Source: Candidatus Manganitrophus noduliformans
Lineage (GTDB): Bacteria; Nitrospirota; Nitrospiria; SBBL01; Manganitrophaceae
Assembly: GCF_012184425.1 (NCBI RefSeq)
Contig: NZ_VTOW01000006.1
Span: forward strand, 1-64,000
Length of the DNA stretch: 64,000 nt
Direction of reading: 5' to 3'
Under the pieces are notes generated by a model. It was not told where the DNA came from and ran no database searches. It saw nothing but the letters and a program-made list of their open reading frames with translations. Shown here one piece after another: positions 41,616 to 57,438 of this stretch. Each line of letters starts with the position of its first letter. Positions within the stretch are counted from its first letter, which is position 1. The position numbers and the translations under genes were made by a program.

Positions 41616-41862
41616 CCGACCCTATAAAAAAGCAAGAGCCGTACCCTGCTCCAGAATCGGTGTGCAGACAGCAGATGGAATTGTTTTATCGTCAAAATTC
41701 AGCCGTTCACCGAAACGGCCCGACCCTGAAACGGCGACCTCGGATGACAGAATTGTCTTTTGTCCGACGATTTGAGGCGAAGCGTGATTACCGAGAGCAT
41801 TGAAGAATGAGATTCCGGGCTGGATTTCATTTCCCTCTTGATTCTTGGTGAGAAGGGGAGTA

Positions 41863-43266
41863 ATGAATAAGGTTGGTTTGGGGATCGTTTTCCACGGGGG
41901 TGAAGAACGAGACCATCGGGGAGTCGGCATGAAGTTCGACGCGGCGGCGATTTTAAACGCGATGAGTGAAGGGGTCTTCGCGGTGAATACCGATAAGAAG
42001 GTCATCTTCGCCAATCGGGCGTTGGGGCGGATGTTGTTTCATCATGATGAGGCGGCGGCCGATCTCCAAGCCGTTCAGCAGATTCTCAGCGACAGCATCT
42101 TCGTTCCGAAACATGCAGCCCTTCTCGATCGCCTGATGTTCAATCGAGAACGTGTTTCACACTATGAAACGGTTTTAAGAGACCTGAATGGAATGCCGAT
42201 CCCGGTCCAGATCCATATCGATCTTCTTCTGGATGAAGCGGGGGAGGTGGTCGGCGCCGTGGAGATCGTCCGGAGTCTTGCCCCGTTCTCTTCAGAGCCG
42301 GGAGAAAAACAGTCGCGACCCTCCGGCCTTCGCTCGCTGGTCGGAAAGAGCAAGAAACTGTTGGAGATGCTCGATCTGGTGGCGTCGGCTTCCGGATCGA
42401 CCGCGACCGTTCTGCTGGAGGGGGAGAGCGGCACCGGAAAGGAATTGATCGCCCGGGCGATCCATCAGATGGGCCCGCGGCGCGAGAAGCCGTTCATCGC
42501 CGTGAACTGCGCCTCTCTTCCGGACGAGCTTCTCGAAAGCGAGCTCTTCGGCCATATGAAAGGCGCCTTCACCACGGCGATTTATGATCGCCCCGGCCGA
42601 TTTGAGCTGGCCGATCATGGGACCCTCTTTCTCGACGAGATCGGCGATATGAGCCCGACGGCGCAGGCAAAGGTGCTCCGGGTCTTGCAAGAGCATGAGT
42701 TTGAGCGGGTCGGGGGGACGAAGACGATCCAGGTCGATGTCCGGATCATCGCCGCGACCAACAAGGATCTCACCGAGGAGGTCCGCGCCGGAAAATTCCG
42801 GGAAGATCTTTACTACCGTATCCGCGTCTTCCCGATCCGTGTCCCTCCGTTGCGGGAGCGAAAGGATGATATTTTCCCCCTCATCAAACACTTCATGGCG
42901 AAGTTCAGCCGCGAGACAGGCAAACAGATCAGCAACATCTCGCCCGAGGCGCTTGAATATCTCCTCTCATACGATTATCCTGGGAATGTGAGGGAATTGG
43001 AGAATATGATCGAGCATGCCTTCGTGACCTCGCCCGGGCCGACCTTGTCGATTGAACATCTTCCGAAACCGGTGGCCCCTCTTTCAAAGCAAGCCCCCCT
43101 TTCCTCTCGGAAGGAGGGGACGCTGGCCAATCAAGAGAAAACATTGATGTTGAAGGCGCTCGAGAAAACAGATTGGAATCAGGCAAAGGCCGCTGAGGAA
43201 TTGGGTATCAGCCGATCGACCCTTTGGCGGCGGCTCAAGGAGTATGGCATCAAAATCCCCAAGTAA
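41863..43266 (+). CDS. PAS-AAA-Fis sigma-54-dependent activator with GAFTTA loop
   Basis: 467 residues from ATG 41863 (AAGGGGAG upstream). An N-terminal PAS domain (about 20-140, MSEGVFAVNTDKKVIFANRALGRML) replaces a receiver, so it is a one-component sensor. The AAA+ domain has Walker A GESGTGKE (187-194), LFLDEIGDM Walker B and the R-finger region FREDLYYRI. The sigma-54-contacting loop reads GAFTTA (234-239) rather than GAFTGA: the second glycine is Thr238. A C-terminal Fis HTH (AAEELGISRSTLWRRLKEYGI) ends the protein. Directly downstream lie tandem repeats and a sigma-54 promoter, the likely target. Confidence 0.93.
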   Translation: MNKVGLGIVFHGGEERDHRGVGMKFDAAAILNAMSEGVFAVNTDKKVIFANRALGRMLFHHDEAAADLQAVQQILSDSIFVPKHAALLDRLMFNRERVSHYETVLRDLNGMPIPVQIHIDLLLDEAGEVVGAVEIVRSLAPFSSEPGEKQSRPSGLRSLVGKSKKLLEMLDLVASASGSTATVLLEGESGTGKELIARAIHQMGPRREKPFIAVNCASLPDELLESELFGHMKGAFTTAIYDRPGRFELADHGTLFLDEIGDMSPTAQAKVLRVLQEHEFERVGGTKTIQVDVRIIAATNKDLTEEVRAGKFREDLYYRIRVFPIRVPPLRERKDDIFPLIKHFMAKFSRETGKQISNISPEALEYLLSYDYPGNVRELENMIEHAFVTSPGPTLSIEHLPKPVAPLSKQAPLSSRKEGTLANQEKTLMLKALEKTDWNQAKAAEELGISRSTLWRRLKEYGIKIPK

Positions 43267-43378: not shown

Positions 43379-43394
43379 TGGCATCTCCTTTGCT
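43379..43394 (+). promoter_or_regulatory. Sigma-54 (-24/-12) promoter
   Basis: TGGCAT-CTCCT-TTGCT: GG at 43380-43381 and GC at 43392-43393, exactly 12 bp apart as required, matching TGGCAC-N5-TTGCW with one deviation. Predicted start near 43405, about 28 nt before the small gene's ATG. Confidence 0.85.
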
Positions 43395-43432: not shown

Positions 43433-43636
43433 ATGGAAAATGGATTTTTTGAGTTTGGGTTTTTTGCGTTGGCTGCTTTTGCGTTTGTGAATGTGATTTG
43501 GGGAGTAACTATGGATGCCCCGCCGGTTCGGAGAGGGATCGCGCATTCTGATTTGAAAGAATTGGAAGCGGGTATCCCGCTGGAGGGGGCTGAATTGGTC
43601 ACCCCAACGCTTAAAGAAAAGATACACGTCGGTTAG
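43433..43636 (+). CDS. 67-aa single-pass membrane peptide under sigma-54 control
   Basis: 67 residues from ATG 43433, behind a strong AAGGAGGGTG. One hydrophobic N-terminal helix (FFEFGFFALAAFAFVNVIWGV) and a polar C-terminal tail with VRRGIAHSDLKELEAGIPLEG, ending TLKEKIHVG. No family recognised. The strong ribosome binding site and dedicated sigma-54 promoter make it very likely a real, regulated gene. Its stop codon lies within the candidate structured RNA 43625-43714. It could be a small membrane regulator or part of a stress response. Confidence 0.8.
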   Translation: MENGFFEFGFFALAAFAFVNVIWGVTMDAPPVRRGIAHSDLKELEAGIPLEGAELVTPTLKEKIHVG

Positions 43637-43714
43637 TTCCCTCCCCCTGGAGGGCCCCCCACCGGGGTTGGAGCCGAATGAGAATGCACTGGCTCTAGCC
43701 CCGGCCCCGACGTG
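43625..43714 (+). ncRNA. Candidate three-way-junction RNA element
   Basis: A closing stem CACGTCGG (43625-43632) with CCGACGTG (43707-43714) encloses two hairpins: CCCTCC-CCCT-GGAGGG (43639-43654) and a 14-bp helix CCGGGGTTGGAGCC (43662-43675) with GGCTCTAGCCCCGG (43691-43704). The long helix pairs at every position only if two G-U pairs are allowed on the plus strand; on the minus strand these would be A-C mismatches, so the sequence favours a plus-strand RNA. It overlaps the stop codon of the 67-aa gene and ends 56 bp before the HTH gene. No T-run follows directly, so not a simple terminator. Confidence 0.55.
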
Positions 43715-43770: not shown

Positions 43771-44601
43771 TTGCTGACCGTATCGACGGCTTCTACCGTC
43801 ATCAAATCAAAGTCGACTGCTCGGCCGCTGAAGAACCAGGGCGAACCGTTCTCCTGGCTAAAGGGGATGGTGACCAACAAGGTGGATCTCTGGAGGGTCT
43901 CGGATAGTCTGAATGTGAATCCCTCGACAGTTCAAAAAATATTGGAGGGGAGTCAGGTTTCGAGAAGCGTCACCAAGAAGATCCACGCCGCCTTTGAACA
44001 AGGAGGGGCGCTGGGCGACAAGCGAACACGCCGGAAAAATATTTCGCCGAATCACTCGACGGTCGAAAGGCTCATGGAAGTCTATGCTCTCTATGAGAAA
44101 GAAAAAAGTCTCAGAGGTGTCGGGGCGAAGCTCGGATTAAGCTGGGAGCGAGTGCGCCAGTTGTTAAAGAAGGGGGCGGCGATCGGGCTGTTCAAATACG
44201 AGCCGCCGAAGGCCCCGCTTCTTTCAAAGGAAAAAATATTGAAGGATTACCGCAAATTCCTCAAAATGGCCAAAGTGGCGAAGTCAAATCATGTCTCTGT
44301 GAATTATCTCTCAAAGCAGATCACGCTTCTGGGGATCTCCGACGAAGAGCTCGAAGCGGTCCGGACGGAGGGTCGTAAACTGCAAAGCATCAAACAGTAC
44401 GACACCCTCGTTCGGAAACGGGGCGTCCATCCGACGACCACCGAATTGAGTCGATCGAAAGCAACCCGATCGCTCGCGTTCAACATCAGAAGGACGTGGG
44501 GATCGCTGGAAGCGTTTCGGAAGGAACGGAACATCGTTCCCGGCAGGCCGGTTCAGAAGACGAATGTAAAAGAAGAAGCGCCGGTTTTGGCGGGGGTGTA
44601 G
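43771..44601 (+). CDS. Multi-HTH DNA-binding-like protein with a homing-repeat-like C-terminus
   Basis: 276 residues from a TTG start with AAAGGGAAAG upstream. Very basic. Three helix-turn-helix-like stretches can be read: LWRVSDSLNVNPSTVQKILEG (about 47-67), SLRGVGAKLGLSWERVRQLLKKG (about 113-135, sigma region-4-like) and KVAKSNHVSVNYLSKQI (about 170-186). The C-terminal QYDTLVRKRGVHPTTTELSRS...RRTWGSLEAFRKERNI resembles the repeat found beside HNH homing endonucleases. A sequence-specific DNA-binding role is likely; no nuclease motif is present. Ends before a strong bidirectional terminator. Confidence 0.65.
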   Translation: MLTVSTASTVIKSKSTARPLKNQGEPFSWLKGMVTNKVDLWRVSDSLNVNPSTVQKILEGSQVSRSVTKKIHAAFEQGGALGDKRTRRKNISPNHSTVERLMEVYALYEKEKSLRGVGAKLGLSWERVRQLLKKGAAIGLFKYEPPKAPLLSKEKILKDYRKFLKMAKVAKSNHVSVNYLSKQITLLGISDEELEAVRTEGRKLQSIKQYDTLVRKRGVHPTTTELSRSKATRSLAFNIRRTWGSLEAFRKERNIVPGRPVQKTNVKEEAPVLAGV

Positions 44602-44633
44602 GGTCGGTAAGTAAGATAGAAGGGTTAAAAAAA

Positions 44634-44670
44634 ACACGCGGAGATCGAATCTCTCCGCGTGTTTTTTATT
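44634..44670. terminator. Bidirectional intrinsic terminator
   Basis: ACACGCGGAGA / TCTCCGCGTGT, 11-bp perfect stem (44634-44662), with an A-run on the left and T-run on the right, so it can end both the HTH gene (+) and fusA (-). Confidence 0.92.
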
Positions 44671-55940: not shown

Positions 55941-56265
55941 TCTGTTTTCTCGGTCAATTCTGTTTGTCGATCTTCTTCGGAGGACTCCCTCCGAAGGGTG
56001 AACGCTGGAACTCCAATGAAATCAACTAAGAGAGCAGGGATTTCCATTCATTGCAGGATCCGACCCCCTTTAGTTTACTACCTCTTGATTTTCTGTCAAT
56101 TGAGGAGCCATATGCCATACACCACGGCCCTCCGGAGAGGGCCGATCTGCCGGTTCTGTCGTGCCGGTCTGGTCATGCTATTTGTTTGACAATCTAAGCC
56201 TTTTTAAATAGAATGGTTAAATTTCAATCAGTTCGATTTCTCAACTTATTTTCGAAGAGGGTGGG
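55941..56265. other. Divergent intergenic region, PAS-GGDEF-EAL gene and aminotransferase operon
   Basis: 325 bp with no gene. Its right end holds the near-consensus promoter of the aminotransferase operon (56186-56214). The left part holds no clear promoter for the leftward signalling gene. Confidence 0.6.
56186..56214 (+). promoter_or_regulatory. Strong sigma-70-type promoter of the aspartate-family operon
   Basis: TTGACA (56186-56191), 17-bp spacer, TAGAAT (56209-56214). The best promoter in the window; predicted start near 56221, 45 nt before the GTG start codon. Confidence 0.85.
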
Positions 56266-57438
56266 GTGGAATTTCAACGGATCAAGCGGCTGCCGCCGTA
56301 TGTGTTCAATGTCGTCAATGCCATGAAAATTGACGCCCGCCGCCGGGGCGAAGACATCATCGATTTCGGAATGGGAAACCCGGACCAGCCGACCCCGACG
56401 CACATTGTTGAAAAGGCCATCGAAGCGCTCGAAAACTCAAAGAACCACCGCTACTCCGCCTCAAAGGGGATCACGAAGCTTCGGCTGGCGGTCACCGACT
56501 GGTATAAGCGGAATTACGCAGTGGAGCTCGATCCCGACACGGAGGCGATCGTCACCATCGGCTCCAAAGAAGGGATCTCGCATCTGGCTTTGGCGACGCT
56601 CGGCCCGGGGGATGTGGTGCTGGTTCCCAGTCCGACCTATCCGATCCACCCCTACAGTGTCGTCATTGCCGGCGGGGAGGTCCGCTCCATCCCGCTGGCG
56701 CCCGGGCGCGATTTTTTCGAGGACATGATCACCGCCTTCAAGCAAACCTGGCCCCGTCCGAAAATGTTGATCATCAACTTTCCGCACAATCCGACCACGC
56801 AGGTCGTCGAGCTTGATTTCTTCAAGAAGATCGTCGATTTCGCGCGCGAGAATCAGGTTCTGGTGGTCCATGATCTGGCCTATGCCGATCTGGTTTTCGA
56901 CGGCTACAAAGCGCCGAGCTTCCTTCAGGTGCCCGGGGCGAAGGAGGTCGGCGTCGAATTTTATACCCTTTCAAAAAGCTACAACATGCCGGGATGGCGC
57001 GTCGGCTTCTGCGTCGGAAACCGGGAGATGGTCGGGGCCTTGACCAAGCTGAAGAGCTATCTCGACTACGGGATCTTTCAACCGGTTCAGATCGCCGCGA
57101 TCATCGCGCTGAACGGACCGCAGGATTGCGTCGGTGAGGTGGTGGAACTCTACCGCCGCCGGCGGAATGTCCTGGTCGACGGCTTAAACCGGATCGGCTG
57201 GAAAATTGAGAAGCCGAAGGCGACGATGTTTGTCTGGGCGCAGATTCCGGAGCCGTTCCGGCAGATGGGGTCGCTCGAGTTCTCCAAGCTTCTCTTGACG
57301 GAGGCGAAGGTTGCCGTCGCTCCCGGGATCGGGTTCGGAGAATACGGCGACGATCATGTCCGCTTCGCCTTGGTCGAGAACGAACACCGGACGCGTCAGG
57401 CGATTCAGGGGATTAAGAAGATACTGAAGGAACGTTGA
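56266..57438 (+). CDS. Class I/II PLP aminotransferase, AlaC-like
   Basis: 390 residues from GTG 56266 with GAGG upstream. Fold-type I aminotransferase: [42 protein letters not shown] is the N-terminal signature of AlaC-like and related transaminases; [26 protein letters not shown], the PLP lysine in [15 protein letters not shown] and the final [15 protein letters not shown] are conserved. Probably transaminates alanine/pyruvate, though this clade includes LL-diaminopimelate and aspartate aminotransferases. Placed ahead of hom-thrC-lysC it may serve the aspartate family. Confidence 0.9.

Follow-up and report, generated by a model that had tools for sequence, protein, structure and literature searches.

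A conserved 3′ hairpin behind a small sigma-54-driven peptide gene of Candidatus Manganitrophus: a candidate mRNA decay barrier

Decay barriers and the layout of the locus

Operon-internal hairpins protect upstream mRNA segments from 3′-to-5′ exonucleases in E. coli, and malE and puf are older cases cited in the same work (PMC5927463). For cip-cel of Clostridium cellulolyticum, the stability of the 3′ stem-loop tracks the transcript ratio (PMC4423207). The element described here resembles such decay barriers (E. coli malE-malF, Rhodobacter puf and the cip-cel SRPS stem-loops; PMC5927463, PMC4423207) in that a stable hairpin without a U-tract stands just past the stop codon of the first cistron, a second gene follows that is presumably needed in smaller amounts, and structure rather than sequence is conserved. 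It differs from them in being a single locus behind a sigma-54 promoter and not a REP repeat, in its partial closure by a stem whose 5′ arm lies in the final codons of the upstream gene, and in being known from sequence alone.

The window (the whole stretch of 64,000 nt that was analyzed) was assigned to Candidatus Manganitrophus (Nitrospirota) because its HTH protein is 96% identical to a protein of Candidatus Manganitrophus sp. GAC4. The gene order of the genus is a PAS/AAA+ sigma-54 activator, a sigma-54 promoter, a 65-67-aa peptide gene, one or more hairpins and the HTH gene (Table 1). The activator matched the Pfam families Sigma54_activat (9.5e-71), HTH_8 (2.7e-17) and PAS (about 1e-7). 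Five congeners retain the promoter, TGGCAT-N5-TTGCT, between -54 and -61; in G016, a genome from the same order but a different family, it stands at -65. The 67-aa peptide is 63-97% identical across the genus and matched no family in Pfam or NCBIfam. The HTH gene was found in all six genus members, and its aligned start codon is GTG or TTG. Promoter, peptide gene, 3′ structure and HTH gene stand together in four relatives (G005, G003, G001 and G004) and are split across two contigs in G002, whose orthologous element is L018. When the interval between the peptide and HTH genes was scanned for a sigma-70-like promoter, none was found; therefore, the two genes are likely to share one transcript, as predicted from the layout of promoter and terminator. 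The HTH protein is also weakly similar to the CRISPR-repeat binder Cbp1 (E 5e-6, under the cut-off) and has several paralogues per genome (L056-L064), with 9 matches in G003.

Table 1. Positions of the features at the locus and of related elements
Feature	Position	Strand	Basis or remark
Sigma-54-dependent activator, PAS + AAA+ + Fis-type HTH	41845..43266	+	start codon uncertain
Sigma-54 promoter TGGCATCTCCTTTGCT (-24/-12)	43379..43394	+	TGGCAT-N5-TTGCT
67-aa single-TM-like peptide gene, ending ...KIHVG*	43433..43636	+	TAG at 43634-43636
P1 5′ arm CACGTCGG	43625..43632	+	fold; within the last codons of the peptide gene
P2 hairpin CCCTCC-CCCT-GGAGGG, 6 bp	43639..43654 (43639-43644/43649-43654)	+	fold
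P3 long helix, 14-15 bp, conserved core	43662..43704 (43662-43676/43690-43704)	+	fold, covariation, pair probability
P1 3′ arm CCGACGTG	43707..43714	+	fold; non-coding
HTH protein gene, 276 aa, TTG start	43771..44601	+	Sigma70_r4 6e-5, under the curated cut-off
Classical bidirectional intrinsic terminator 3′ of the HTH gene	44629..44667	+	terminator scan
Peptide family in G000, examples	C1:745856, C1:1240161, C1:1431776, C14:3865, C3:605438		
Peptide family in G000, further examples	C1:1857235, C3:676010, C3:254798, window 43433-43636		
Hairpin GATCAAGCC-n-GGCTTGRTC	G000 C1:746107, G005 C1:1762362, G002 C322:618, G004 C1:127790, C4:81026		search

The fold and the conserved hairpin P3

The initial annotation had drawn a three-part fold at 43625-43714, with an 8-bp P1, a 6-bp P2 and a P3 holding G-U pairs, which overlapped the stop codon of the peptide gene and preceded the HTH gene. 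All of this was recovered. The stop codon sits just within P1, the HTH start lies 57 nt past the end of the fold, and P3 begins about 25 nt past the stop codon. P3 was extended to 15 bp including three G-U pairs; the 14 bp drawn earlier hold two. On the plus strand the minimum free energy of the segment was -51.3 kcal/mol versus -32.5 +/- 3.2 kcal/mol for shuffled versions (z -5.9), of which not one in 200 was as stable. Among 169 gene ends sampled from 464 kb of this genome, none reached -51.3 kcal/mol in the first 90 nt (best -46.5), and three further places in the 64-kb window attain -50 kcal/mol. REP-like recurring palindromes, GTAGGGGCG...CGCCCCTAC and GTAGAGACGTCCCGCCGGGACGTCTCTAC, were also seen at gene ends on contig C1 of this genome (G000) and in the window, e.g., 3′ of 56265-57438.

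The proposal that the RNA structure is under selection was examined by a covariance check, which revealed compensatory changes in P3. Both sides had changed in 6 of 14 pairs and 98.2% of the cells were paired (86.5% when shuffled), in rows from G000, G005, G003, G001 and L018 that are four distinct sequences from about three lineages; the covariation score was 0.55 versus 0.30 +/- 0.07 for shuffles, counts that are not to be read as probabilities. The counts were made on two ungapped 14-nt arms taken directly from the sequences and not on the MAFFT alignment, which misplaced one P3 base of G001. Pairing was lost when the arms were slid by one column, the slid versions being at most 62% paired. 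Two species have a perfect or near-perfect P3 helix of different sequence, and a covariance model built from four species matched the left-out orthologue L018 at E 6.9e-10. In transcript context, P3 paired with a probability near 1 in each of the five species for which both sides are known. G004 was excluded from the count, having a shorter helix in another register; its peptide is 63% identical and the gene order is retained, and its isolated element is weak (-22.8 kcal/mol, z -2.1). Conservation of the peptide, raised beforehand as a possible source of the stems, cannot explain P2, P3 or the P1 3′ arm because all of them lie 3′ of the stop codon; only the P1 5′ arm is coding. Stop-codon read-through was considered and rejected, the frame after the TAG being short and unconserved among G000, G003 and G001 and the stop of G004 being TAA. 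These results support P3 as a conserved 3′ hairpin, which is the safe claim from the comparison of orthologues.

The three-way junction had also been proposed, and it stands as a fold of the window species but was not robust among relatives. The P1 5′ arm (HVG* codons) is invariant in four species and reads CACGTCAG in G004; because of this invariance P1 cannot show covariation. The 3′ arm reads CC(T)GACGTG, CCTGACGG, CCTGATGTG or CATGTG in relatives and remains complementary, with a bulge in G005 and G003, a mismatch in G001 and a G-U pair in G004; L018 would have a G-U pair too, assuming that its missing 5′ arm resembles that of the other species. A hairpin at the position of P2 was found in G005, G003, G001 and L018, with the register shifted in the last two. 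When transcripts reaching from close to the start of the peptide gene to 170 nt beyond its stop were folded, P1 was in the best fold for two of five species, the window species (0.99) and G003 (0.5-0.6), and the junction was not the best fold in G005, G001 and G004. The junction is thus modeled as a probable elaboration of the P3 hairpin in some species.

The strand of the element was considered separately. The G-U asymmetry read from the letters is real in P3, but it does not fix the strand alone. The minus strand breaks P3 at the wobbles, yet gains pairs elsewhere and is nearly as stable as the plus strand (-51.9 kcal/mol, z -4.2), so that energy alone does not choose between them. On the plus strand, the non-Watson-Crick pairs of P3 are G-U, with no A-C, in the orthologues as in the window (two or three in the window, one each in G005, G003 and L018, two to three in G004), a supporting and not a decisive count, as common descent accounts for some of the G-U pairs and a plus-strand fold served to pick the G004 helix. 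The sigma-54 promoter points in the same direction. The plus-strand RNA suggested at the outset is therefore the likelier form, judging from promoter and pairing.

No known family accounts for the element, in keeping with the first impression that the motif was not a familiar one: the Rfam search of the window gave no match at the gathering threshold, and at E up to 10 there were three sub-threshold matches in the region, none spanning the whole fold. Searching 31 relatives with the covariance model gave no convincing match outside the orthologous locus of the genus. The element is single copy in its genome, which speaks against a repeat or mobile element. Related PAS activators across the rest of the phylum yielded no further copies because other small proteins follow their sigma-54 promoters. 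At the Nitrospirota loci L096-L104 and L108, the sigma-54 promoter next to the PAS sigma-54 activator serves another small-protein gene, whose product is either zinc-ribbon-like (MKCPKCKG...) or acidic, the gene in the latter case preceding an IscU-like one.

The partner gene and the explanations weighed

Given that the fold lies between two genes, the more distant genome G016 was informative. It has an orthologous activator, the sigma-54 promoter TGGCATGACCTTTGCT and a 78-aa peptide gene with strong hairpins on its 3′ side, one of them starting in the last codons; no HTH gene follows, and the hairpins precede about 550 nt without a gene. Because activator, promoter, peptide and hairpins are retained there without the HTH gene, the hairpin belongs to the peptide. 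Gene neighborhoods thus show that the 3′ structure goes with the peptide gene and not with the HTH gene. An association with the HTH family elsewhere was also tried and rejected, as eight HTH paralogue loci lack an upstream sigma-54 promoter and peptide gene.

Structure, P3 covariation and the tie to the peptide gene are observations on the locus. On weighing them we tentatively favor, at somewhat less than an even chance, a 3′-end barrier in which the U-less P3 hairpin, with P2 and in some species P1, would raise the peptide mRNA over the HTH mRNA. In the two-gene transcript, the HTH portion downstream would be cleaved or would decay first, the hairpin would halt 3′-to-5′ exonucleases at the end of the peptide message, and the peptide message would then outlive and outnumber the HTH message. 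Co-transcription, the nuclease barrier and the effect on the ratio are what we infer. A ribosome terminating at the UAG would probably sit on the P1 5′ arm and the first part of P2 without disturbing P3, which would fit P3 being the retained part. Two of the features expected of a decay barrier were found here, a stable hairpin between the cistrons near the upstream stop and a structure under selection, as indicated by P3 covariation and the L018 match. Moreover, sequence, loop and length vary while P3 pairing is retained, and this freedom fits a physical barrier better than an RNA carrying a ligand site or a seed. On the other hand, the G004 helix is much weaker despite the retained gene order, the covariation comes from only about three independent lineages, and similar U-less hairpins at many gene ends may be non-standard terminators.

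This last point leads to the main rival, a partial or Rho-assisted terminator without a U-tract, which would end most peptide transcripts and let a minority read into the HTH gene, with a similar outcome. A strong hairpin directly past the stop is what such a terminator would have, the G016 hairpins are followed by about 550 nt of gene-free sequence, and GC-rich U-less hairpins are frequent at the gene ends of this genome, including between convergent genes (about 15% of gene ends carry one with at least 11 Watson-Crick pairs). The element thus shares with an intrinsic (Rho-independent) terminator a GC-rich hairpin at a gene 3′ end. Intrinsic termination, however, normally requires a U-tract, and none follows the hairpin in any species, the tails reading CCCCGACG, CCCCTGAC, CCTGACGG and TCCATGTG; the terminator scan found no terminator here, yet classical U-tract terminators are in use in this genome, one of them right after the HTH gene. 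We regard the terminator as somewhat unlikely.

A cis-acting switch for the HTH gene, working by translational coupling or attenuation and sensed by a ligand or the ribosome, had been offered by the initial annotation. In its favor, P1 would be opened by a ribosome that terminates at the stop codon within the junction, and the HTH gene is constant in the genus. However, the G016 hairpins occur without an HTH gene, the HTH start is unsequestered at its distance from the fold, and the junction is not the best in-context fold in three species. A riboswitch-like element would keep a conserved unpaired core and always stand before the regulated gene; here the junction and loop bases are unconserved. 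Nor is the fold a classical attenuator, because no U-tract follows it. The switch is accordingly not supported as first proposed and is quite improbable.

The other role first suggested, a 3′-UTR-derived small RNA acting in trans, is held to be just as improbable on the letters as they stand. The very stable 3′ end of a sigma-54 mRNA recalls such RNAs, which come from the structured 3′ end of a regulated mRNA, and the element is single copy and genus-restricted; unlike them, it has neither a conserved unpaired seed nor a terminator U-tract. The P3 loop is about 10 nt shorter in G003, other loops differ, and Rfam gave no match. A DNA-level palindrome, such as an operator of the HTH protein or a mobile-element remnant, is very unlikely: the inverted repeats do score on the minus strand too, but the element is single copy, its helix sequence has changed between species with 71-97% identical HTH proteins, unlike an operator, and its non-Watson-Crick P3 pairs are G-U on the plus strand, without A-C.

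A putative family of small sigma-54-driven peptides

About nine single-TM-like peptides of 67-80 aa, sharing a motif around FGF...FAF..N..W...PP, were observed in G000, so that the window peptide has about eight relatives in its own genome, the weakest at E 0.007-0.015. A sigma-54 promoter lies within 200 nt of 5 of the 9 peptide genes versus 1 of 422 other sampled genes, and 6 of the 9 carry a 3′ hairpin of at least 11 Watson-Crick pairs versus 32 of 219 gene ends; both counts are post hoc and include the window's own locus among the nine. From this, the small membrane peptides seem to form a sigma-54 regulon that has not been described before. A hairpin, GATCAAGCC-n-GGCTTGRTC, was seen in four Manganitrophus genomes, each time immediately behind a peptide gene of this kind, and in G004 it follows two different peptide paralogues. 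That each gene of the regulon has a dedicated structured 3′ element, releasing stable 3′ RNAs or setting the peptide dose by a shared decay-barrier scheme undescribed in Nitrospirota, is an unlikely extension.

Coming back to the decay barrier, the element looks like another case of a familiar type and not like a novel switch. A fold noted by eye now has phylogenetic support in a barely cultured lineage that is known to grow on manganese. It also leads to a so far undescribed family of small membrane peptides driven by sigma-54, with mRNAs that often end in strong hairpins. If the barrier is true, Nitrospirota, a phylum with little RNA biology, would supply a further case in which an RNA structure determines how much of each of two products a single transcript yields.
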